A model generated the notes under the pieces. It was not told the DNA's origin. It did not search any database and worked only from the letters and a program-made list of their open reading frames with translations. Positions 414 through 18,654 of a stretch of 21,001 nt of DNA are shown here, piece after piece; within the stretch, counting starts at the first letter, position 1; every line of letters begins with the position of its first letter. The position numbers and the translations under genes were made by a program. The DNA comes from a virus, in the IMG/VR virus record IMGVR_UViG_3300032236_000137, positions 1-21,001 of that record; one strand, written 5' to 3'.

Positions 414-1976
414 CTATTTACCAGATAAGAAGTTAATCAGACTTCCTACCGTTAAGTCAACACCCCCAGAAGAATTAATTCCTTCGCCATCTAGAACTGC
501 ATTGGCTACTGACTTCTTCTGCTGGAGCATGTCGTACTGACGTTGCTCGATTGAATCCTTTACCAGAATATCTTGGATGGTTATTGTAGCCCACTCCGAC
601 GACGTTCTGTTAATGCGACCATTTCTCTGAACTGCTAGTCCAGCAGACCATGGCTGGTCATAGTTTAGCAATAGGTTTGCTTGTGGCAAGTCTACGCCGT
701 AACCGCCCGCATCGCTAGAAACCAGAACTCTGATGTGGGCTCTGGTTTGGAACTTAACCTTAGCATCCTCTTTCTTGGTGGCGTTCATCTCACCTGTGTA
801 TGCCACCGCTCCGTAGCCCTTGGCGTTAAGTCTCTCCACTATCTCGGATACCGAGGATAGGTAGGATGTGAACACTACCGCTTTGTAGGACTCGTCGATG
901 TCTAGGTGCTCAGCAAGGTAGTCGATGGCTGCATCTAGTTTTGGCGTCTTGGAGATTCCGTGGAGTAGGTCTCCCAGCGAGTGCACGTACGCACTGCCCT
1001 TGCCGTTCTGTTCTTGGAAGTTCTCATAACTCTCAAGTAGTACTTGAGGGCTTGAGCACAACATTCTGAGGGCACCAATGCGGGACATGATTTCCCCACG
1101 CATCTGGTTGGCTGGGTCACTTGGGTCGAACGCTTGCCCGTAGTGGGAGGCTAGGTTGAAGTTCTTGCCGAATAGTTCGCTGGCTTGCGTCAGCAACTCA
1201 ACTAGGTCAGCGGCGATGTACTTGTAGAGGGAGGCAGACGCCTTGTCTAGCGGGATGAGCAATGGCTCTCGGTAGACCGCATCAGGAAGGAACGGGGCGA
1301 CGTCCTCATCCTTCTGGGCTTTTCTTACGGAGGACTCCACAAGAACCTTATGGAGAGTCGGTAGGTTGCGGTATCTCTGGACGCCACCGAAGTGGTTTCT
1401 AACTATGAACGTCTTATCGAAGATGTCGAAGCGCCCAAGGATGTTGGGGTCAACGAACTGCATGATGGAGTAAATCTCCTCAGGCTTGCCGTTCTCTATC
1501 GGCGTTCCTGTGAGAGCAAATCTGACAGGTACTCTTTTTGCAAGTTCCTTAACCTTTTTTGCTCGCTTGGCTCTGAAGCCTTTGATTGCGGTTGCCTCGT
1601 CACAAATGATTGCATCAAACGCAAAATCTTTAATAATGTCCCAGTCATTAACTACCTGTTCGTAATTCATAATCACGTAGTCATACTCGACTACCTGCCC
1701 GTAAAGTTTGGCTCTCTGAGCCTTTGTGCCATCGATGACTAGGGAAGAGGAGTCGCTAAACTTTGTGACTTCTTTTTGCCATTGGTACTTCAAGGATGAC
1801 AGGCATAGAACCAGAACGGTCCTAGCCACTTTGCCGCTATATCTGAGTTCCTCGACTGCGGCGATGGTCATTGGGGTTTTACCCAGACCCATTTCGTAGG
1901 CAACCAGAATCTTCTGCTTGTCTACCATCTTGGTGACGGCATCAACCTGATATGGTTTCAGGGTTCCTTTGAACAT
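414..1976 (-). CDS. SNF2-type (superfamily 2) DNA helicase/translocase
   Basis: Likely an ATP-dependent DNA translocase or helicase of the SNF2/DEAD-like superfamily. Counting from ATG 1976 (520 aa): a Q-like motif (LKPYQ, residues 6-10), Walker A EMGLGKT (28-34), motif II DEAT (126-129, where classical SNF2 proteins have DEAH or DEAQ), motif III LTGTP (155-159), motif V DAGGYGVDL (422-430) and motif VI QRNGRINR (450-457) with arginine finger candidates. Both RecA-like lobes are therefore complete. A longer GTG start at 2018 is possible, but ATG 1976 has GGAG nine bases upstream and overlaps the primase gene by only 35 bp, so I prefer it. The usual long SNF2 insertions are short, as in phage versions. 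Its place after primase and DnaB suggests a role in phage replication, recombination or fork remodelling; the exact substrate is unknown. Confidence 0.9.
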   Translation of the reverse strand: MFKGTLKPYQVDAVTKMVDKQKILVAYEMGLGKTPMTIAAVEELRYSGKVARTVLVLCLSSLKYQWQKEVTKFSDSSSLVIDGTKAQRAKLYGQVVEYDYVIMNYEQVVNDWDIIKDFAFDAIICDEATAIKGFRAKRAKKVKELAKRVPVRFALTGTPIENGKPEEIYSIMQFVDPNILGRFDIFDKTFIVRNHFGGVQRYRNLPTLHKVLVESSVRKAQKDEDVAPFLPDAVYREPLLIPLDKASASLYKYIAADLVELLTQASELFGKNFNLASHYGQAFDPSDPANQMRGEIMSRIGALRMLCSSPQVLLESYENFQEQNGKGSAYVHSLGDLLHGISKTPKLDAAIDYLAEHLDIDESYKAVVFTSYLSSVSEIVERLNAKGYGAVAYTGEMNATKKEDAKVKFQTRAHIRVLVSSDAGGYGVDLPQANLLLNYDQPWSAGLAVQRNGRINRTSSEWATITIQDILVKDSIEQRQYDMLQQKKSVANAVLDGEGINSSGGVDLTVGSLINFLSGK

Positions 1977-2943
1977 ATGCCGATTCTCCAAGAAGTGCTG
2001 ATTGTGCGTTTTCCACACCCCAGCGAATCTCTTCGTCGGTCATGTCACCAGGGTCTTTTTTGCCACTACCACCATAGTTGAAAAAGAACAAATTTAAACC
2101 GTATTTGCGAGACCATTCCAGCATCTCCTTTGATGCCTTGTAGCCAGCCTTATCGTTGTCGAAGGCGGCGACTATCTTGTTTGAGTAGCGAAGAAGTTTT
2201 ACTTGTTCTTCCGACGGGGACGACCCACAGATAGCCACTCCTCCAGCAATACCAGCAGAGTCAATGCGGACACAATCAAGGGGAGACTCAACAACAACAG
2301 CAAGTTCAGCACTTTGGTTCTCAATTCCGAATAGGGTTTTTGACTTGGCTAGACCTGTTGGGCGATTGAAGAAGGTGCGGTCTACTGTCCCCTTCTCCTG
2401 CCAGCCTAGCAACTTGCCCGTATTAGGGACACGCAATGGGAGAATCCACGCCTTCTTGTTGGCATCCCACAAAACGTGATATTTGCTTATGGAGGTCTCC
2501 ATAAGATTTCGCTTTTTCGCCTCTTCTGATGGAGGTGCTACAAAGACTGCCAGACGGGCTTCAGACATCTCGAGGGGCTTTGGGATGTCCTTGATGTAGG
2601 TAGGCAGTTCGTTCAACTGCTCCATAAGGTCTTCAATGGAAATCTCGGCGCTGTGCTTGAGCCATTCCTTAGCGGCTTGATAGTCGTAACTCTTTACGTC
2701 GCCCCACGAGGTGATGTACAACTGCTTAACGTCGCAGACCAGTTGGAGCAGGTTACCCTTGTAGCCACAGGAGAAGCAGGTGTGCATGCCCGACTCGAGG
2801 TTAATCCACCATGATGGCGAGTTGTCTCGTCGCCCAGTTCGCTCCTCGTGCATAGGACACAGCGCAGTGGCTTCTACCGCATGTTCCGTGTAGTCAACGC
2901 CTAGGGCGTCTAGGGCACTAATAACGTCATACGTTATGCCCAT
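1942..2943 (-). CDS. DnaG-type DNA primase (CHC2 zinc finger plus TOPRIM)
   Basis: Makes RNA primers for DNA synthesis. From ATG 2943 (333 aa) there is an N-terminal zinc-binding domain with C29, H32, C56 and C59 (CPMH ... CFSC), typical of CHC2 primases. The TOPRIM catalytic core has E219 in VVVES, the DxD pair D262/D264 in FDNDKAG, and a third acidic site in KKDPGD (around 297-300). The protein is about half the length of E. coli DnaG and has no obvious extra C-terminal helicase-binding domain, as is common for phage primases. The frame can be opened to TTG 2955, but the GGAG inside that extension is the SD for ATG 2943, and ATG 2943 overlaps the stop of the DnaB-like gene as TAATG. I therefore choose 2943. 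It is almost certainly the partner of the adjacent DnaB-like helicase. Confidence 0.93.
   Translation of the reverse strand: MGITYDVISALDALGVDYTEHAVEATALCPMHEERTGRRDNSPSWWINLESGMHTCFSCGYKGNLLQLVCDVKQLYITSWGDVKSYDYQAAKEWLKHSAEISIEDLMEQLNELPTYIKDIPKPLEMSEARLAVFVAPPSEEAKKRNLMETSISKYHVLWDANKKAWILPLRVPNTGKLLGWQEKGTVDRTFFNRPTGLAKSKTLFGIENQSAELAVVVESPLDCVRIDSAGIAGGVAICGSSPSEEQVKLLRYSNKIVAAFDNDKAGYKASKEMLEWSRKYGLNLFFFNYGGSGKKDPGDMTDEEIRWGVENAQSALLGESAYVQRNPETISG
1986..1989 (-). promoter_or_regulatory. Ribosome binding site deciding the SNF2-like helicase start
   Basis: GGAG (minus strand) lies nine bases before ATG 1976, inside the end of the primase gene. The alternative GTG at 2018 has no comparable site, only a G-rich run directly against it. 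Confidence 0.6.
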
Positions 2944-4190
2944 TAGAGACTCCAAGGAGTGCAGTACTTGCAGGTCTTCTTCTTCTCTTCATCGTGGAAG
3001 CAACCAGTCTCCCAGTCCCAAGTAATCTCTTCAGAACTTGGTGGGCAGTTACGAGACTGAACAATCTTGAGTAGGCGTTGCTTCTCTTCGTCCTCGATTG
3101 GCTCGAGACCTAGGATTACGTCTGAGTCTTGGAAGAACGATGATGAGTAACCGATTGAGTCCGCCGAAACCTTGCCGCCCTTCATCTTCCAGAGCAGGGT
3201 CTGGGTGGTGATGACGATTGGGATGTTCATTTTCTGGGCGACACGCTTGAGACCACGAGTAATGTTCGTCAATGCCTGTGGAGTATTAGCCTCGCCAGTC
3301 ACTTGGTCAAACATCAGGTAGACACCATCGACAAATACGATGTCTGGAGTCAACTGCTCAATCTTTGCTACGAGAGCGTCGATGGTCAGACCGCCCATGG
3401 CATCCACGAGGTGGAATGGGTGCTCCGTCTTCATGTCGTCAAGCAACTTCTTGTAGCGTTCCTCTTCAATCGACAACAGTTTTCCATTGCGGAATCGGGT
3501 TGCCGAGAGGTGGGCACGGATAGAGTCGTGGCGCTGAGACTGCTCGTGGTTGTTCATCTCAAACGATTGGAACATCGGGGTCATGCCCGATGCGTGAACG
3601 TTGACTGCCATCTGTAGTGCAATCTGCGACTTACCTGTCTTAGGTGGAGCGATGACGGTAATCAACTGTCCGCCCTGAAGACCAGAGGTTGCTTCGTCAA
3701 TCTTGCTGAAGCCCGTGGCGATACCCAGCAACTTGTGCTGTTGCAGATTCTCGTACTCTTCAAAACGCTTATCAGTATTCGAGGTCAGGTCTACGTGCGT
3801 GGTTCCAATGACGCCCTGAGCGTTCACCAGCGAGACAGTCTTGCTCATCTCGGCAAGGGCTGACTCGTGGTCGTTCTGCGACATCTTCTGCATGATGTCT
3901 TGGATGCCGCCTCGAGTCAGTACGTTACGGCGGAACGTGACCATCGTGTCGATGAGGTAGTCGAGAGACTCCTCAATGTTGTAGATGGTGAAGTTAGGGA
4001 AGTTATCCTTAACGGTCTCCGCAGTTGGTACTACACGATAGTTGGCATAGTGCTCGCGGATGAATACCCAGACACGGCGTAGGTCGTCATCGACAAACCA
4101 GTCGTCCTTGATGCCCTGTTCGATTACAGGAATAATCACACGGTCTTTGATGACCTTGCTTACTAGCCTTTGCTCATTATCCAATGCCAT
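2943..4190 (-). CDS. DnaB-type replicative DNA helicase
   Basis: Predicted hexameric replicative helicase, 415 aa, start ATG 4190 with a purine-rich SD (AAGGAAGAGGG) upstream. An all-helical N-terminal domain (about 1-130) resembles the DnaB N domain. The RecA-like motor follows: Walker A APPKTGKS (181-188), FEM with the catalytic E211, Walker B IVFVD (284-288), the TTQ motif (328-330), and SRNCP (379-383) in the place of the usual RNGP arginine-finger loop, keeping R380 but with Cys instead of Gly. The C-terminal tail adds C397, C407 and C410, giving four cysteines near the end, which could bind a metal. It follows the unknown 139-aa gene and overlaps the primase start by TAATG, consistent with helicase-primase co-production. 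Confidence 0.92.
   Translation of the reverse strand: MALDNEQRLVSKVIKDRVIIPVIEQGIKDDWFVDDDLRRVWVFIREHYANYRVVPTAETVKDNFPNFTIYNIEESLDYLIDTMVTFRRNVLTRGGIQDIMQKMSQNDHESALAEMSKTVSLVNAQGVIGTTHVDLTSNTDKRFEEYENLQQHKLLGIATGFSKIDEATSGLQGGQLITVIAPPKTGKSQIALQMAVNVHASGMTPMFQSFEMNNHEQSQRHDSIRAHLSATRFRNGKLLSIEEERYKKLLDDMKTEHPFHLVDAMGGLTIDALVAKIEQLTPDIVFVDGVYLMFDQVTGEANTPQALTNITRGLKRVAQKMNIPIVITTQTLLWKMKGGKVSADSIGYSSSFFQDSDVILGLEPIEDEEKQRLLKIVQSRNCPPSSEEITWDWETGCFHDEEKKKTCKYCTPWSL
2950..2953 (-). promoter_or_regulatory. Ribosome binding site deciding the primase start
   Basis: GGAG (minus strand) is six bases before ATG 2943. It lies inside the would-be TTG-initiated extension, which argues that the extension is not translated as part of the primase. 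Confidence 0.65.
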
Positions 4191-4211: not shown

Positions 4212-4631
4212 CTAAAGATTGTAAAGTTCTATGCCCTTTGACCCATAACGGGCTACCCTGCCAGGGACATCTACGATGCCAACCAAGTTCGGGCGATACG
4301 GAAGTTCATCGATGAAGTCATTGATGTCCGAGTAAACCTCCGAGTAGTTAAACGGATTGGTTCCACGCTTGTCAAGTTTCTCCATAATCTGGGTAACAAG
4401 AACTTCAGTCCAGAGGTCTGTTTCAAATGCAGCAAGTTCGATTGACATGCCGTACTTGTTTGCCACAGTCCACAGATGGGATAGGGCTAGGTGGTCGATT
4501 GAGTTAATCTTGCGTTCTTCCGTGGTAGGGAGGAGCACTCGCTTCTTCTCAATAACTTCTGACTTGATGATGGTGTCGATAACCACAATCAAACGCCGAG
4601 GGGTTTCGTTAGAGATGTCTCCGCCTTGCAC
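4212..4631 (-). CDS. Unknown protein in the replication operon
   Basis: A 139-aa protein of unknown function. It starts with GTG 4631, which overlaps the stop of the SWIM protein gene as TAGTG and has GGAG eight bases upstream. The sequence alternates predicted strands and helices: a hydrophobic strand RLIVVIDT (about 13-20), a helical middle with a second strand GMSIELAAF (about 60-68), and a third strand VGIVDV near the end. This looks like a compact alpha/beta (Rossmann- or HAD-like) fold, but I cannot find a convincing catalytic motif and do not assign a family. It sits between the SWIM protein and the DnaB-like helicase, so an accessory replication or recombination role is possible by context only. 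Confidence 0.8.
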   Translation of the reverse strand: MQGGDISNETPRRLIVVIDTIIKSEVIEKKRVLLPTTEERKINSIDHLALSHLWTVANKYGMSIELAAFETDLWTEVLVTQIMEKLDKRGTNPFNYSEVYSDINDFIDELPYRPNLVGIVDVPGRVARYGSKGIELYNL

Positions 4632-4993
4632 TATAGGGTCTCCACTTTTCCGTAGCGAAGAACCAAGTCGCGGAACAAGTCGGTATCTCCTAGCGCATCC
4701 AGAGCATCTTCTTCCTCAACATCTTCTGGGATAGAAAGGTTGAACACACCTTCGGTCTTTGCCAATTGTTCTTTTAGGTACTTGGTGTGCTTGCAGCGAC
4801 CCAACTTCGAGAACCGCTCGCAGGTGCAACGCATCTTCTGCGAGTTCATTGCGTCAACTGATACCTCAGAGATTACGCCAGATGACTTAGGGTCAGGAGC
4901 ATCGGGGTTAGCCTTGTAAGACTCGTTGTCTGCTGGGCTCCACTCAAACTCTTCATCGAGGAAGAACTGGATTGTCCGCCATTCAATTTCCAT
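4631..4993 (-). CDS. SWIM-type zinc-motif protein
   Basis: A 120-aa acidic protein. Counting from ATG 4993 it has C56, C58, C67 and H69 in the spacing CxC-x8-CxH, which is the SWIM zinc-finger signature; basic residues surround it (KMRCTCERFSKLGRCKHTK). The C-terminal third is very acidic (EDVEEEDALD). SWIM motifs are known from transposase-, SNF2- and recombination-mediator-associated proteins, where they bind DNA or protein. A GTG at 5008 would add five residues, but AAAGG lies seven bases before ATG 4993, so I use that. The gene sits between the helicase loader and the DnaB-like helicase genes and is TAGTG-coupled to the next gene. A DNA-binding accessory role is likely; the specific function is unknown. 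Confidence 0.82.
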   Translation of the reverse strand: MEIEWRTIQFFLDEEFEWSPADNESYKANPDAPDPKSSGVISEVSVDAMNSQKMRCTCERFSKLGRCKHTKYLKEQLAKTEGVFNLSIPEDVEEEDALDALGDTDLFRDLVLRYGKVETL

Positions 4994-5000
4994 TGCGTTG

Positions 5001-5005
5001 CCTTT
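5001..5005 (-). promoter_or_regulatory. Ribosome binding site deciding the SWIM protein start
   Basis: AAAGG (minus strand), seven bases before ATG 4993 and directly next to the TGA of the helicase-loader gene (5005-5007). It favours ATG 4993 over GTG 5008. Confidence 0.5.
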
Positions 5006-5721
5006 CACTTCTGGCGCAAATCCTTGCCTAGGAGAGGGACACGATGGAAGGCTTCGTGAACGAAACTTCCCATGGCAGAACCGTACTGGTCTTTCCAGTT
5101 ATCCCGATTTACGTTGGTAGTAATAATTGTAGGTAGAGCCTTGTCGTAACGGGCTCGCAAAATCTCATCGAACGAAGTGTTGTCGTACTTCGAGCCGTAC
5201 TCCTTGCCCAAGTCATCAAGAACTAGGACACGGACATTCAGCCAGTCTTCCTTGGCACGACCATGGAAACCTTCCATCTCGCGGTAAAGGTCTGGGCGCT
5301 CGTCTTCCGATGCGTCAATCAAAGCCTTCTTGCGAGATAGGAACTCTGGAAACGTGAGGTAGTAGATTGGGCGCATGTCGCTAGGCGATAGTCCGCTAGG
5401 GATGCTTAGGATGCGTTCCATCTTGTCCTCAGGCATAAGACGGACAAACTCCATGAGGGCGGTCACTGCGTGAGTGGTCTTGCCACGACCTGGCTCACCA
5501 TCGAACAGAAGACCGACACCAGTGGTGCTGATTCCGCCGATGTTCCTGATGACCTGACCTTCCCAAGCCAACTCGAGCCACTCGTCGATAATCTCTGGGA
5601 ACGAGCCGTTGCGAGCAACGATGTCGCCACGGTCCATGCCCATGAATCGGCGTGGGATGTTAGAGCGGTTGAAAATCCAGTTACGCTTCAAGGTCGATAG
5701 GTCGCCCAAGTTGTAAGCCAT
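5005..5721 (-). CDS. DnaC/IstB-type AAA+ ATPase, putative helicase loader
   Basis: A 238-aa AAA+ protein with Walker A GEPGRGKT (75-82), Walker B VLVLDD (165-170), sensor-1-like TTN (201-203) and a C-terminal region with R227 in a position suited to an arginine finger. Size and motif order match the DnaC/DnaI/IstB group, which load the DnaB hexamer onto single-stranded DNA at an origin. The start ATG 5721 overlaps the stop of the initiator-like gene as TAATG, with AAGGG upstream. Having an initiator-like protein immediately before it and DnaB plus primase soon after strongly supports the helicase-loader role over a transposition helper; no transposase is present. Confidence 0.88.
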   Translation of the reverse strand: MAYNLGDLSTLKRNWIFNRSNIPRRFMGMDRGDIVARNGSFPEIIDEWLELAWEGQVIRNIGGISTTGVGLLFDGEPGRGKTTHAVTALMEFVRLMPEDKMERILSIPSGLSPSDMRPIYYLTFPEFLSRKKALIDASEDERPDLYREMEGFHGRAKEDWLNVRVLVLDDLGKEYGSKYDNTSFDEILRARYDKALPTIITTNVNRDNWKDQYGSAMGSFVHEAFHRVPLLGKDLRQK

Positions 5722-6647
5722 TAGTTGCCCTTCAGTTTTGCTTCATAGCGTGCTAGTGCAGCACGACCTGGCATTGAGTCATCAAACTGCTTGCCGTCAG
5801 AAGCATAAACATACAGGCTTTCTTCATCAACTGCAACTGCCGTCTCAATCGAGACGTTCGAGGCTAGGAACTCGGTGATTGAGTTGAGGAAGATTCCGTG
5901 TGCGTTCTTGGGGAACTTCTTGATTGCAACTAGGTTGCGCTCATCACCAAAGAACTTATTCAGGGCGGCAATCTCCTGCTCTGCGGTAACCCCAAACTTC
6001 TTGCGGTTGGTAGCCAGAGCAATAGCCAGACGCTTGGTGTTTACCAGACCTGGGATGCCACGAATCTTTTCATAGACCTTGGCGGCAAACTCTGAGGCAA
6101 CATCCTGAGAGGTCCACTTCTCCATAGGCTTTTGAGAACGGTGAATCTTCCCACGCACCGCAGGTGCGGTCCCGCCAGGGACTTCCCCCTCAAGTAGACC
6201 GAATCCCCCAACTTCGTCATCTTCGTTCCAACGATTGACCACTGAACCCTCCTGAAGGGATTTATATGACTTATTAGTAGATTTAGTCTTATTAGTAGAC
6301 TTAGTAGTTATAGAGACACGTGTTGTTGTGTCACTGATGACACGTCCTGCGGACGTCTCTTCGACCTCAATTTTGGCTTTCGATGTGTCACGGGTGGAAC
6401 ATCGCAAAAGGGTATAGCGGTTCTCATCCCACAACCCGTAGTTACGTTTTGTGCGATTGACCTTTACCCATCCGCTCTCGACCAATGCCTCAACGGCACG
6501 GTGGACAGATGAGCGTGAGTATCCCGTTAGATTGCCAAGGTCTTCCATGGATGCACGGACTTCACCCCAGCGAGTTTCTAAGTGGCGCATAGCCAAAAAT
6601 ACCTTGAGTTGCGCTGATGGCAATTCAAGTAGTTCTAAATCCGACAT
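5721..6647 (-). CDS. Winged-helix replication-initiator-like protein (lambda O / DnaD-like role)
   Basis: A 308-aa protein starting at ATG 6647 with a strong AGGAGG site five bases upstream. Residues about 10-80 look like a winged helix-turn-helix (SMEDLGNLTGYSRSSVHRAVEALVESGW, given here in part: helix 35-48, recognition helix 45-55, wing about 60-80). A long low-complexity linker (about 85-175) contains the repeated peptide KSTNK. The C-terminal domain (about 176-308) is mostly helical. N-terminal DNA-binding domain, flexible linker and C-terminal partner-binding domain is the plan of phage initiators such as lambda O and of DnaD-like proteins. The next gene encodes a helicase loader. The linker-coding DNA holds an iteron-like, AT-rich region that may be the origin. 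A transcriptional regulator is the alternative, but the context favours an initiator. Confidence 0.8.
   Translation of the reverse strand: MSDLELLELPSAQLKVFLAMRHLETRWGEVRASMEDLGNLTGYSRSSVHRAVEALVESGWVKVNRTKRNYGLWDENRYTLLRCSTRDTSKAKIEVEETSAGRVISDTTTRVSITTKSTNKTKSTNKSYKSLQEGSVVNRWNEDDEVGGFGLLEGEVPGGTAPAVRGKIHRSQKPMEKWTSQDVASEFAAKVYEKIRGIPGLVNTKRLAIALATNRKKFGVTAEQEIAALNKFFGDERNLVAIKKFPKNAHGIFLNSITEFLASNVSIETAVAVDEESLYVYASDGKQFDDSMPGRAALARYEAKLKGN
6270..6308. repeat. AT-rich direct repeats (iteron-like)
   Basis: On the plus strand CTTATTAGTAGA occurs at 6270-6281 and again at 6288-6299, an exact 12-mer with an 18-bp period. A shortened third copy, CTTAGTAGT, follows at 6300-6308. The core TTAGTAG thus appears three times (6274, 6292, 6301). 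In protein they give the repeated KSTNK of the initiator linker. Confidence 0.85.
6312..6360. repeat. Nested inverted repeats beside the AT-rich iterons
   Basis: An outer 6-bp inverted repeat AGAGAC (6312-6317) / GTCTCT (6355-6360) encloses two perfect short hairpins: GTGTCA / TGACAC with a 4-nt loop (6328-6333, 6338-6343) and ACGTCC / GGACGT with a 3-nt loop (6342-6347, 6351-6356). The two share two bases, so they cannot both form fully. The 8-bp palindrome ACACGTGT lies at 6316-6323. Confidence 0.8.
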
Positions 6648-6648
6648 G

Positions 6649-6915
6649 TTACCTCCTGCTGATTACCTGAGTAATCTCCTTAGGCTTTGACACTAGTGCC
6701 AAGATGACCAAAGAAATAAACCCAGAAGCAGGAGTATACACGAACAGCAGAACTGTGTGGATTCCCAAAATCCAAAGCGCCGCGAAGGCAAGTGGGAGCG
6801 TGAGCGTTTGCTTGAAAAGTTTAGGATTTACCCAGTTTGAAAGGGCTGAACTGATTAGTTCGACTAAGTAGCCGCTGGCAAATCCTGCGATGATTATTGA
6901 AATTAAAATGTCCAT
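6649..6915 (-). CDS. Small membrane protein of unknown function
   Basis: An 88-aa protein, start ATG 6915. Hydrophobic segments at about 3-25, 38-60 and 63-76 suggest two to three membrane spans, with a short positively charged C-terminus (SKPKE ... ISRR). The start lacks a clear SD, and it lies nine bases after the stop of the large tail protein, so it may depend on translation from upstream. It stands exactly at the border between virion and replication modules. Size and topology would fit a holin, but there is no endolysin gene beside it in this window and no decisive motif, so I leave it unassigned. Confidence 0.7.
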   Translation of the reverse strand: MDILISIIIAGFASGYLVELISSALSNWVNPKLFKQTLTLPLAFAALWILGIHTVLLFVYTPASGFISLVILALVSKPKEITQVISRR

Positions 6916-14264: not shown

Positions 14265-16075
14265 TTTGTTCCCGTCGTAGTGCTGGACGTACTAGAAGTA
14301 GAAGGCTGAGTCTTGATGTTGTCCAACGTAGACTTCTTAGCGAAGTCTGGAAGGCGGTTACAAGTCAACTGAAGATTGGTAAACACAGGAACCATGTCTT
14401 TAGTAAAGATAGTGTGGCTAATGTTAAACGAATCAATAGTCACCAAGTAACGGAGGTTCTTACCTAGGTGGAGTTCTACTGGGTAGGCTCCCAGGTAACC
14501 AATGTCTGCGGTCAGCATGTTTCCTCGCATGCTGCTAGGCAAGCGGTAACCAATCAGGGTCATCAACAAGTACTCAATGTCATACATTGTTCCCAGTTTT
14601 TGAATCTTCTGCAGTTCCTCAGCCACACTGTCAATGTTGTCCGCATTATCGTGGGCTTGAGGGTGATTGCCATTGTGAGAATAGATGTCCGAGAAGGAAG
14701 GTCCGCCAGTCACTGGCTCACGGTCAACCGCAGCCAAAGTCTTCTGGACAGCAGCATCCGTGTACTGCTGCAGCAGCCCATCAAGATACTTAAAGTCATT
14801 CATGCGATTGATAAGCAAACTAAAGGTCACCGTACTGCTGGTTACTCCAGAACCGATAAGAGCGACCTTATCTGCGCCCGAGGTCTCCAAACCAATGTCA
14901 ACTGCAGGAGCACCCGCGTAGTACATAGTCACAGTGGATGGGTTATAAATGAACTGGAATCCGTAACGACGGCTATTGATGTTCTTGATGTTTACACCAA
15001 GACCACCAGTCCCAGTATCCTGAGGCTTATTCCAAGCACCAGCACCCAACTTTGCTGGAACAATGTATGACTGAATCATACCCTTGTAGGCTTGATTGTC
15101 CGCCCACAACTTACTTGCATCAGTTACTAGCGAAGGCTTATTTCCCGCAGTTACATAGGTAACGCTCTTACTAGCGTCGCCCCCCGCAGGGTCCCACGCA
15201 CGGAAGTACATCTCATTTACGCCAGGAAGATTATGGATTACGGGCTTGCTGTCATCTCCAATTCCAAGATAGCCTTGGTTGCTTCCTGGGTCTTTGACCT
15301 TATTGTCTTTACCGTTTCCATTGCCACCAGGAGATTTAGTTGAGTTATCCGTAGGAAGTTGAGTAAGGTCCTTAGTTGCCCAGCCGCGCTGCCTCTCATC
15401 GTCAATCAACTTATTGTAAGCAGCGACCATTTCTTTGTACTTGTCGGCGGTGTATTGTTCTAGTTTAGTATAGTAAACGCTTAACCTCTGAGTCCAATGA
15501 ACTTCATCAATAGAACTTCCAGACCAGATAGGAAGTTGGTCATAAAAAGGGAAATTACTTACAACACCTTTGTAGCCCTCCCTATCGAGATAGGCTTGCC
15601 AGTCAGCAGTACCGAAGTTAAGTCCATAAGTATTAAAGTTACGGCAACTGTAAATCTTTCCGCCAGTAACGGTTTTGATTGAAGTATTAGTGGTACCTCC
15701 AGGAGTGAGGCGAACTATAGACCAGTTAGTACTTGCAGGGTCCTGAGTTACGTCCGCATCAGTTAACTGGTTTACGCCATTTCCTAGCCCAAGTATCCAG
15801 TGAAACTTATTTAACTGACCCCCAGCATGTGGGAATACTGTTCCTGAAGGAAGGTATAGGACAACAACGCCACCGTTAACTTCGTATTGGTGAATAGGTG
15901 TTTCTATTAGCAAATCCAAAGCGTTGTGGTAAACCAACTTAGCCACATTTCTAAATGGAATAGAGTCTTTCCATGCCTTCACTGCATTATTGAAGGCTGA
16001 GGTATCCAGCGCAGAGACGGGCGGCTTAGTAACAGGCTTAACTACTACGGTAGTTTTTGGTGGTGGCTTAGGCAT
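14261..16075 (-). CDS. Long baseplate/tube-initiator-like protein with N-terminal extension
   Basis: A 604-aa protein, start ATG 16075, overlapping the tape-measure stop as TAATG. The C-terminal part (about 365-575) begins RRYGFQFIYNPSTVTMYYAG and ends with LRYLVTIDSFNISHTIFTKD plus PVFTNLQLTCNRL. This matches the pattern of contractile-injection-system tube-like proteins: an F-x-x-x-NPS strand at the start and a 'V.S......iF..d..P......l' end. A Thr/Ser tail follows. The N-terminal 240 residues are proline-rich at first (PKPPPK ... KPPV) and otherwise unfamiliar, with aromatic-rich segments. A glycine/lysine linker (about 242-268) separates the two parts. It probably forms the end of the tube at the baseplate; the N-terminal part I do not recognise. 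Confidence 0.6.
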   Translation of the reverse strand: MPKPPPKTTVVVKPVTKPPVSALDTSAFNNAVKAWKDSIPFRNVAKLVYHNALDLLIETPIHQYEVNGGVVVLYLPSGTVFPHAGGQLNKFHWILGLGNGVNQLTDADVTQDPASTNWSIVRLTPGGTTNTSIKTVTGGKIYSCRNFNTYGLNFGTADWQAYLDREGYKGVVSNFPFYDQLPIWSGSSIDEVHWTQRLSVYYTKLEQYTADKYKEMVAAYNKLIDDERQRGWATKDLTQLPTDNSTKSPGGNGNGKDNKVKDPGSNQGYLGIGDDSKPVIHNLPGVNEMYFRAWDPAGGDASKSVTYVTAGNKPSLVTDASKLWADNQAYKGMIQSYIVPAKLGAGAWNKPQDTGTGGLGVNIKNINSRRYGFQFIYNPSTVTMYYAGAPAVDIGLETSGADKVALIGSGVTSSTVTFSLLINRMNDFKYLDGLLQQYTDAAVQKTLAAVDREPVTGGPSFSDIYSHNGNHPQAHDNADNIDSVAEELQKIQKLGTMYDIEYLLMTLIGYRLPSSMRGNMLTADIGYLGAYPVELHLGKNLRYLVTIDSFNISHTIFTKDMVPVFTNLQLTCNRLPDFAKKSTLDNIKTQPSTSSTSSTTTGTN

Positions 16076-18654
16076 TACAACCGTCCCATACTAGAAGTCA
16101 GTGCTTCATCATCAATGTATTGCTTAATCATCTGTGCAAATCGTCTAGCCTCAGACTCAGATGCCTGAGCCACGGTTACGTTAATTACAATGTTGTTCTT
16201 TAGTGGCGCACTATCTCCACCATTACCGCTACCGACCGATGCCCCGCCAGTCATAGTGGTGCTGGCACCGTGACCCACCACAGCCTGTCCTTGAGTAGCG
16301 GACTGAGTAGCCGCCGTGCTTGGTGCGCTGCCAGCGCCAGAATACGGTGCGGGGGTTGGGATGCCAGCAACTTGCTTGGCGGCGGCACTAAATCCTAAAA
16401 GGTCTGCACCCGCCGAACCTGCTCCCGCCACGCCAGCAGAGCCAGAACTACTCGAAGCGGCACTTCCAGAGTCACCAAATCCAGCGGAATAGTTTCCACC
16501 TAGAGCAGCCGATGGGTCAGCAGGTTTGCCCGTAGGGTCATCCAACTCAAAGTGAAGGTGGGGACCAGTCGAGTAGCCAGTGTTACCACTTTGACCAATG
16601 AACTGACCCTGCTTTACAGCAGTGCCGTTCTGCACGCTGATTGCCTGAAGGTGACCATACTTCGTCACCCAACCGCCAGCGTGCTTGATGTGAACCTGAA
16701 GACCTAGAGTAGGTGCTCCGTTAGGGTATGTGTTTTGTGCGTTACCACCAGCGAAAATAACAGTTCCATCGCCAGCAGCCATAACACTAGTTCCAGCAGC
16801 AACAGCGTAGTCAATACCGTTGTGACCATTAGGGTGGTTAGAGTCAACCACACCGAACATAAGGGAAATCTTAGAGTTCTTAGGAACTGGGTGAGTTAGG
16901 CTTAGGGCTCCATTAGATGAGGAAGTACCCGTACCAATAGTGCTGCTCTCACCACCCTGCTGTGAGCCAAAGAGCGCGTCATAGGCTTGAGTTCCGAGCC
17001 AGTTACCAGCCATAGAGCCACCAGCGTAGGTTAGTCCACCTGCAACTAGACCGACACCACCAGTAGCGGCAGTCACTGCTGCAGTTGCTCCAGCACCGCC
17101 CAAAAGACCACCGACATCACCAAAGACGCCACGCCAGTTACCTTGCATGACATCGCTACCAATGCTCATAATGTTAAAAGCAGTTCCGACTCCAGGAACA
17201 AGTTTGCCTAAAGTCTTACCCAAAGTTTTAAAGCCAACTTTTTCGGTAGCGTTGAGTGCGTCCTTTTCAGCCGCACTAATAAACTTTCCAGTGGCACTGT
17301 TCTGCCAACGATTTGCTTTTGCGTTCCAAACAGCCTTCGCGCCAGAGCCACCTGCGCCAGCAGCACCAGCAGCACCTGCGCCGTTACCAAGTACGCCCGC
17401 TTTTGTAAGGGTTCGCTTTAGCATGGCGTTCTGGAATAACGAATTTCCAATACCGCCGATACCGCCAATGACTCCGCCAGCAGCACCCAAGATACCCTGA
17501 CCAATGTTGGTGCTGCCACCAAAACCAAGACCAGCGTTCAACTGTGCAAGATTGTTGCCAGCAGTGGTGTTCAAGAATTTTTGAATTGCACCATTGAACT
17601 TGTCAATCATGCCAGCGGCTTTTTGCATGCCAGCGATGTAGGCATCCGAGGCGGCTTGCATAGTTCCAGTGCTAGAAGAGTTAACATCATAGCCTGGCTG
17701 ATTAGGGTTTACCCCAGACTCTTTTTGGAGTTGAGCCATAACCTGATTATTACCCAAGTCCATGTTCTTGCCAGAAGCCTTGTCGAGCATGTACTGGTAT
17801 GCGAGACGCTGCTGAGTAGCGTCAAGACCAGAGAGTTGCAAGTCCTGAGCAAGTGCTCCACCTTGCATGGAAGTCATCAGGTCAGCACGAGAAAGTTTTT
17901 GTCCACCAGTAATACGGGCGTTCAACTGAGCAAAGATGTCGGTTGGGCTAAGACGCTTACCCGTCATTGGGTTGGTGGTATACAGACCGAAGTTACGCAT
18001 CAGTGCGGAAGAGGTGGTGCCAGAAGTAAGTCCGCCAAGAGCCTGAGCGGCGGTAGCGTTATCAATGTTTAGGTACTTGGCTGCGTTAGCAGTAGAGGTG
18101 GCTAGGTTCGCAAACTGACCAGTGAGTTGACCATTCTTGCCAAAGGTTGGCATGACACCCATACCAACAAGGTTCGCGGCGGTAACAGCGTCAGTACCTA
18201 GTCCAGTTAGTCCACCCTTCATTGCTCCTAGAGTGGCAAGACCTAGGCGGTTACGACCACCTGCGCCAAGACCAGCCATGGTCGAAGCGTCATAGAGGGC
18301 AGAACTTCTGGCAGTAGTCGTTGACCAATCAGGAAGTGCAGTAGCAACACCTGCTGCGATGCCAGTGATGGCTTGGAGTCCGCCCTTTGCCAGAGCCATA
18401 CGCATGTCGTATTGACCTGCAGCACCAGTGATTTGGGAGATGTTGCCGAGAGACCCCGACATGATGTTGCCAGAAGAACTACTGCCCAAGCCCTTTTGAC
18501 CAAAGCCGCTTTGAGACCCAGCGTTGTTCTTAAAGGCTCCCGTGGCAGCGGAACCCAACTTGCCAAAATCGGTGACGAGTTTGTTGACGAGTTTGTCTAG
18601 TTTAGACATGCCGTCATACATCTTGGAGACGAAATTACTTGCGTCATCAGCCAT
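16075..18654 (-). CDS. Tape measure protein with M23 endopeptidase domain
   Basis: The longest gene, 859 aa, start ATG 18654, overlapping the end of the chaperone extension. The N-terminal part is helical and Ala/Gly-rich with an internal hydrophobic, glycine-rich stretch (about 490-560: VGLVAGGLTYAGG and neighbours) expected for a tape measure that inserts in the host membrane. Residues about 590-730 are an M23 (lysostaphin-type) peptidase domain with H611, D615 (HNGID) and H699/H701 (HLHFE), plus H668 in KYGHLQ: all metal ligands and the extra active-site His are present, so it is probably active and cuts peptidoglycan cross-links during DNA entry. After a low-complexity Gly/Ala/Ser linker, a helical tail (about 820-859) ends the protein. 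By the usual 1.5 angstrom per residue rule the tail would be about 130 nm (inference). Confidence 0.9.
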   Translation of the reverse strand: MADDASNFVSKMYDGMSKLDKLVNKLVTDFGKLGSAATGAFKNNAGSQSGFGQKGLGSSSSGNIMSGSLGNISQITGAAGQYDMRMALAKGGLQAITGIAAGVATALPDWSTTTARSSALYDASTMAGLGAGGRNRLGLATLGAMKGGLTGLGTDAVTAANLVGMGVMPTFGKNGQLTGQFANLATSTANAAKYLNIDNATAAQALGGLTSGTTSSALMRNFGLYTTNPMTGKRLSPTDIFAQLNARITGGQKLSRADLMTSMQGGALAQDLQLSGLDATQQRLAYQYMLDKASGKNMDLGNNQVMAQLQKESGVNPNQPGYDVNSSSTGTMQAASDAYIAGMQKAAGMIDKFNGAIQKFLNTTAGNNLAQLNAGLGFGGSTNIGQGILGAAGGVIGGIGGIGNSLFQNAMLKRTLTKAGVLGNGAGAAGAAGAGGSGAKAVWNAKANRWQNSATGKFISAAEKDALNATEKVGFKTLGKTLGKLVPGVGTAFNIMSIGSDVMQGNWRGVFGDVGGLLGGAGATAAVTAATGGVGLVAGGLTYAGGSMAGNWLGTQAYDALFGSQQGGESSTIGTGTSSSNGALSLTHPVPKNSKISLMFGVVDSNHPNGHNGIDYAVAAGTSVMAAGDGTVIFAGGNAQNTYPNGAPTLGLQVHIKHAGGWVTKYGHLQAISVQNGTAVKQGQFIGQSGNTGYSTGPHLHFELDDPTGKPADPSAALGGNYSAGFGDSGSAASSSSGSAGVAGAGSAGADLLGFSAAAKQVAGIPTPAPYSGAGSAPSTAATQSATQGQAVVGHGASTTMTGGASVGSGNGGDSAPLKNNIVINVTVAQASESEARRFAQMIKQYIDDEALTSSMGRL

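Follow-up and report, generated by a model that had tools for sequence, protein, structure and literature searches.

Positions 6240-6404 of a 21,001-nucleotide stretch of viral DNA (hereafter the window; IMG/VR record IMGVR_UViG_3300032236_000137, positions 1 to 21,001) very probably form a phage replication origin situated inside the linker-coding part of the phage's own initiator gene, as judged from comparative sequence analysis. A first-pass annotation, made from the letters of the sequence, had proposed an origin embedded in this linker, and the proposal is supported by synonymous constraint on the linker in four clades of relatives and by one relative in which the corresponding DNA is a non-coding gap. 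The analysis establishes the domain layout of the initiator, the sequence elements, their order and their constraint beyond codon need. Read along the coding strand, the winged-helix codons are followed by dyad 1, dyad 2, an extra half-site, an AT-rich block, a Shine-Dalgarno-like sequence, a GTG codon and the C-terminal domain (Table 1).

In the mechanism that we infer for origin activity, the N-terminal winged helix would bind, as dimers, to the two dyads, and binding on supercoiled DNA would open the adjacent 52-bp AT-rich block. The C-terminal domain, tethered by the linker and perhaps also made separately by internal translation from the GTG, would then recruit the AAA+ loader encoded by the adjacent gene. 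The loader in turn would deliver the phage's DnaB-like helicase to the strand so exposed, with the phage primase following.

Table 1. Features of the candidate origin and its replication genes (window coordinates)
Feature	Position	Strand	Basis
Initiator gene, 308 aa	5721-6647	-	ORF; PHROG profiles; AlphaFold layout; homologue matches
Initiator domains: winged helix (residues ~1-85), disordered linker (~96-164), helical C-terminal domain			AlphaFold
Dyad 1, CGATGTGTCACGGGTGGAACATCG, proposed initiator-binding site	6381-6404		Position conserved in clade A; matching dyad in B2
Dyad 2, TGTTGTGTCACTGATGACACGTCC, proposed initiator-binding site	6324-6347		Repeat search; clade A core; G001 spacing
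Extra half-site GACAC adjoining AT-rich block	6315-6319		In part of clade A only
AT-rich block, proposed DNA unwinding element, 52 bp	6261-6312		G+C, stability, strongest synonymous constraint in the gene, CTA run; includes 12-mers
Shine-Dalgarno-like AGGAGGG	6247-6253	-	Clade A conservation; adjoining constraint window P 0.046
Probable internal GTG start, C-terminal domain (VVNRW...) alone	6240-6242	-	GTG in all clade A members
C-terminal domain coding part	5724-6242	-	Separate helical domain in model; stand-alone gene beside loader in relatives
AAA+ DnaC/IstB-like helicase loader	5005-5721	-	phrog_50 1.9e-23; PF01695 2e-5
DnaB-like replicative helicase	2943-4190	-	PF03796 2e-27; phrog_19 3e-59
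DNA primase (zinc ribbon, Toprim)	1942-2955	-	phrog_47 1e-34; PF13155 6e-11

The initiator, its neighbours and its relatives

The AlphaFold model of the initiator has a confidently predicted winged helix, a stretch with pLDDT below 50 (residues 101-164) and a separate, helical C-terminal domain. The protein matches phrog_678 (replication initiation, O-like; 3e-11, residues 7-128), phrog_270 (replication initiation protein) and, more weakly, phrog_186 (DnaD-like); among 44 aligned homologues, phrog_270 is matched by 43 and phrog_678 by 36. A fold search of the PDB returned weak matches to winged-helix domains only (MarR/ArsR/TFE-type regulators, best E 0.006) and none for the C-terminal domain, which we propose contacts the helicase loader. 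The start of the loader gene overlaps the initiator stop at 5721. Profile matches and the AlphaFold model agree with the gene order first read here, that of a winged-helix initiator-like gene followed by loader, DnaB and primase.

Two small genes between the loader and the DnaB-like helicase (4212-5008, minus strand) have no Pfam or PHROG match. The replication block also has a SNF2-type helicase gene (414-2018, minus strand), which immediately follows the primase. The gene next upstream of the initiator encodes a small hydrophobic protein of 88 amino acids (6649-6915, minus strand) with no informative family match in Pfam or PHROG; in the relatives inspected, this gene is always directly upstream of either the initiator or a stand-alone C-terminal gene. 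Also upstream of the initiator start is a palindrome, TTGACACTAGTGCCAA (6687-6702), which includes a TGACAC half-site and an inverted near copy. It could act as an operator, and relatives keep at best its GTGTC half. Across the initiator from the replication block, genes for a baseplate wedge and a tail tube agree with a contractile tail, and gene content suggests that the source phage is probably contractile-tailed; no sheath gene was identified in the 21-kb window. A tape-measure-like protein (16075-18654, minus strand) has an embedded metallo-endopeptidase/endolysin-type domain at residues ~595-716.

No relative of the initiator was found by tblastn among 50,697 GenBank phage records, with three divergent homologues also tried as queries. 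A protein-profile search of bacterial genomes likewise found none at the sensitivity used, and so no host or prophage was identified. Relatives come instead from IMG/VR, whose contigs are uncultured and mostly fragments: seven contigs are close relatives, a search with the loader gave 80 loci and further scans added more, yielding 66 distinct homologues, ~50 of them full length. Long related contigs include G001 (70 kb) and G006 (93.6 kb). The homologues were grouped by linker type into clades A (which includes the window), B1, B2 and C, labels that describe the linker rather than a tree. The predicted origin thereby belongs to a large lineage of phages that are uncultured and environmental, and for their initiators no relative is detectable in GenBank phages. 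The 16-mer CTACTAAGTCTACTAA was considered as a mobile origin element and rejected: an IMG/VR scan found it in 69 contigs, and the matches beyond known relatives are unrelated coding sequences.

Elements of the linker-coding stretch

The 50-base AT-rich block that had first drawn attention to this locus lies at 6261-6310. It is exactly 22% G+C, the lowest of any 50-mer in the window (the next lowest is 26%), and is also the least stable by nearest-neighbour energy. The homologous block is the least stable 50-mer of the whole contig in both G001 and G006; in G007 (rank 9) and G008 (rank 98) it is not extreme. Within the block, CTTATTAGTAGA occurs exactly at 6270 and 6288, a period of 18 bp, with a shortened third copy from ~6300, just as originally described; only one other exact 12-mer in the window is repeated in tandem at a spacing of 9-24 bp. 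Relatives do not strictly conserve the 12-mers; what is kept is the whole block, with 9-bp units of CTACTA type.

These units consist of in-phase CTA triplets on the coding strand (TAG on the plus strand). Seven in-phase CTA triplets fall within 36 nt, the maximum for the window, and shuffled windows reach no more than five; the maximum of G001 is also at its origin. When compared with synonymous shuffles, CTA is enriched in all of clade A (P at most 0.022), and in clade B the enrichment is uneven. Codon choice points the same way: all five threonine codons in the window's block are ACT, which is used once in the rest of the gene, and clade A blocks use ACT and never ACA, while the rest of these genes use both. 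Since ACT and ACA are equal in A+T, this preference is not a matter of AT-richness alone. The AT-rich 12-mers look like part of an unwinding element.

The two dyads are imperfect, ~22 bp long and 57 bp apart, a spacing also seen in G001. Clade A members share the core of dyad 2, GTGTC-N6-GACAC, which in L006 has a single mismatch. The four GACAC/GTGTC elements noted at the outset as lying within about 75 bases (6315, 6328, 6339 and 6385) are indeed the tightest foursome of the window (P ~0.01, assuming uniform placement). A scan of the 70 kb of G001 for the dyad, with two mismatches allowed, finds just two matches, both at the homologous locus. In clade B2 the dyad at the matching place differs by one base, changed symmetrically in both half-sites (TGTTTCA-N4-TGAAACA), and is often present twice; clade C has direct repeats there, AATTACCGCAC, instead of dyads. 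Because the dyad pattern was read from these same sequences, the scan gives no independent result for the window. When genes are tested singly, the dyads of most do not differ significantly from synonymous shuffles; L018 and L035 alone clearly exceed them, and the dyad in L035 is not the iteron. The case for the dyads therefore rests on their conserved position, the symmetric half-site change and their scarcity in whole contigs. The first-pass annotation had credited the phage with iteron sequences of its own. Candidate sites are present, but on this comparison the initiator-binding iterons are more likely to be the GTGTC/GACAC dyads than the 12-mers.

Two perfect short hairpins, GTGTCActgaTGACAC (6328-6343) and ACGTCCtgcGGACGT (6342-6356), are present in the window as first reported, and the region folds better as a single strand than its shuffles do (z -3.3). 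Alignment shows the second to be private to the window, whereas the GTGTCA/TGACAC dyad that forms the first is kept in relatives.

Dyads are typical of dimeric winged-helix repressors, and the PDB matches are to regulators of the MarR, ArsR and TFE types. The dyads might thus be autoregulatory sites for the winged-helix protein, with the AT-rich block, which lies ahead of a start codon and could hold a promoter, as the place where transcription of the C-terminal domain and the replication operon is promoted or begins. We regard this reading as very unlikely: a simple promoter scan for sigma-70-like sites found none in the block, and autoregulation leaves unexplained both the extreme duplex instability with its in-phase CTA units and the fixed position of these elements, with the initiator domain on one side and the loader on the other. 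An operator role would not preclude an origin role.

Selection on the DNA and its natural rearrangements

An embedded origin should be conserved at the DNA level beyond codon need, as was pointed out when the locus was first described. Synonymous codon identity was scanned on codon alignments against pairwise expectation, with column permutation as the control. In clade A, constraint is seen at residues 114-128 (P<0.0002), 92-109 (P 0.001) and 129-144 (P 0.046); the linkers of the other clades give P values of 0.0004 twice (B1), <0.0002 (B2) and <0.0002 and 0.0008 (C), all from a permutation test that does not model the tree on which these non-independent clade members lie. The windows of strongest constraint fall in the linker in all four clades, and nothing in the rest of the gene is significant. 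Judged from these alignments, the pattern shows that selection preserves DNA signals in the linker-coding stretch and not only the encoded protein.

In L030 the gene is split. The winged helix has its own ORF (2148-2372), the C-terminal domain another (2480-3001), and the non-coding gap of 107 bp between them (2373-2479) holds ACATCAACAG, an AT-rich stretch, two hairpins and a Shine-Dalgarno sequence. One of these hairpins is a perfect 10-bp stem, TAATAAATACtacGTATTTATTA, the second GAAGGCtgacGCCTTC. As read from its sequence, L030 is a natural case of an initiator divided in two about its origin, with block, hairpins and Shine-Dalgarno sequence independent of coding. A different rearrangement is seen in L015, L017, L019, L020, L023 and L052 (the L015 group), which lack the winged helix, the AT-rich block and the hairpins alike; their C-terminal domain is encoded by a gene of its own that immediately follows the small membrane-protein gene and lies just upstream of the loader. 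G005, a long member of this group, has no hairpin 1 and no convincing winged helix elsewhere in its contig. Together, the patterns in L030 and the L015 group indicate that winged helix and origin elements come and go together.

These comparisons bear on the alternative that the repeats reflect a flexible linker rich in K, S, T and N whose AT-richness follows from its codons. The linker is predicted to be disordered and does encode a repetitive peptide (KSTNKTKSTNK). Nevertheless, the conservation of linker codons beyond need in four clades largely refutes this explanation, which we consider extremely improbable: in L006 the CTACTA units persist while the amino acids change, in L030 the AT-rich stretch lies outside any reading frame, and sequences for this same peptide drawn from the phage's codon usage rarely reach the observed A+T (P 0.0009) or CTA content (P 0.0065).

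A second alternative places the origin elsewhere in the genome and makes this locus an accessory or control site for the initiator. The L015 group, without the module, must start replication otherwise, and in phage SPP1 one of two origins lies in the initiator gene and the other ~13 kb away (PMC6316719). The cumulative GC-skew inflection that the first description had suggested looking for is also absent at the locus in five related contigs of 70-94 kb. Phage GC skew is often governed by transcription. G001, however, has no second cluster of the clade's dyads in its 70 kb, and in two long contigs the least stable DNA immediately adjoins the dyads; an origin elsewhere is in our judgement distinctly unlikely.

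Clades B and C have hairpins between the AT-rich block and the C-terminal domain. At 21 loci of clade B the AT-rich block is followed by a stem of 10 bp whose loop is 3 nt long. Of its cells, 98.6% pair, and eight of the ten pairs change on both sides, a combination that none of 500 shuffles reaches; pairing falls to 31-49% when the arms are slid. All but L101 have a second stem (GGGGC/GCCCC, GAGGGC/GCCCTC, GGTGCC/GGCACC, GTGCGC/GCGCAC and others). At the corresponding position clade C forms a stem of its own, whose arms occur in six or more different sequences, and the stems of both clades exceed synonymous shuffles in nearly every representative. Just one G-U pair occurs among the 210 cells of hairpin 1, which weakly favours selection on DNA. 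The window's clade has no equivalent covarying hairpin, and a hairpin at its Shine-Dalgarno sequence is not beyond chance.

The codon homologous to 6240-6242 is where the stand-alone genes begin in L015, L017, L019, L020, L023, L030 and L052. CAGGAGG is kept throughout clade A except in L013, which has CGGGAGG; Shine-Dalgarno strength is just marginally above that of synonymous shuffles. The free-standing relatives and the conserved Shine-Dalgarno sequence make it probable that the C-terminal domain is also translated alone from this GTG.

It might be argued that the whole conserved stretch serves this internal initiation, the sister-clade hairpins acting in mRNA upstream of the Shine-Dalgarno sequence. 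Such a role would suit the start at a homologous codon, the stand-alone genes, and clade B hairpins that lie ~10 nt or less from the Shine-Dalgarno sequence and form stable RNA folds. It leaves the dyads and the AT-rich block unexplained, however, and the L015 group has no hairpins even though its C-terminal gene keeps its own start. The rarity of G-U pairs also weakly favours DNA, the window's clade lacks such a hairpin and its Shine-Dalgarno excess is marginal. As an explanation of the locus, translation control thus seems unlikely; it may operate at 6240-6256 in addition to the origin.

Known origins and a possible unwinding code

In bacteriophage lambda, O dimers bind 19-bp inverted repeats within gene O and cause an adjoining 40 bp of A+T-rich DNA to open (PMC5043065), and two iterons plus the A+T-rich region make up the minimal fragment competent for unwinding (PMC7466680). 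The window resembles oriLambda and the Stx phage origins in that, midway along the initiator gene, inverted repeats are followed by A+T-rich DNA, with the loader gene next, and its two dyads recall the two-iteron minimum. Initiator layout (N-terminal winged helix, flexible linker, separate C-terminal domain), candidate iterons recognised by sequence and conservation as two inverted repeats inside the gene, an A+T-rich region adjoining them on the C-terminal side, a helicase-loader gene directly downstream, selection on DNA beyond codon need and, via phrog_678, a sequence relationship to O-like initiators are all found here. The differences are that the window has two dyads ~57 bp apart where lambda has four close iterons, and of different sequence; that its loader is of the AAA+ DnaC/IstB-like type rather than a lambda P homologue; and that the phage has its own DnaB-like helicase and primase and a probable internal start. 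SPP1 oriL also lies inside an initiator gene (38) and combines repeats with an AT-rich unwinding region, and genes for a loader (39) and a DnaB-type helicase (40) come next (PMC6316719), all of which the window shares. SPP1, however, has direct repeats and a second origin, oriR, whereas the window's clade has dyads, direct repeats being found in clade C only.

An iteron plasmid replicon of the RepE/TrfA type was rejected, given the single winged helix, the inverted-repeat sites of the window's clade and the O-like profiles, and no Rfam family matched the locus. On its sequence-level features we would file the window as a lambda-O-type embedded origin, a variant in the number and sequence of its sites, its AAA+ loader, its probable internal start and a trio-like block. 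Origin DNA in this family would be evolving under protein-coding constraint: sites switch in sequence and in type (dyads or direct repeats) with their order unchanged, hairpins within a reading frame covary, and in one member the gene is divided in two about the origin. The family thus separates, in nature, protein-level from DNA-level selection.

The trio-like block invites comparison with Bacillus subtilis oriC, where DnaA-trios (3'-GAT-5') lie on the 5' tail relative to the DnaA boxes (PMC8287927) and the strand opposite reads 5'-CTACTATTACTTCTACTA-3' (PMC10201434). The block resembles the B. subtilis DnaA-trios and DnaD recognition element (DRE) in its in-phase CTA run, which is on the strand leading away from the dyads and has the same polarity, and, as in the B. 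subtilis system, a DnaD-like family is represented, here by the PHROG matched by the phage homologues. A tentative and on present evidence doubtful proposal is that a lambda-O-like, DnaD-related initiator bound to the dyads would hand over to the AAA+ loader (or host DnaA) assembling on in-register 3'-GAT-5' trinucleotides. The unwinding logic of oriC would then be reused without DnaA boxes and inside coding sequence, with covarying hairpins, probably acting as DNA, taking part of the job in sister phages. Were the trio-like block functional, phage and bacterial origins would share an unwinding code. Unlike oriC, the phage has dyads as its double-strand sites, and no DnaA box lies near the block, the nearest one-mismatch boxes in the window being at 5423 and 7352. 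The B. subtilis 18-mer does not single out the block in the window, where the best match is elsewhere. In-register 3'-GAT-5' trios of the correct polarity are absent in clade C and several B members and present in clade A, G006 and G007; the best match to the 18-mer is at the origin in the 93.6 kb of G006, and in G007 the match at the origin is tied best.
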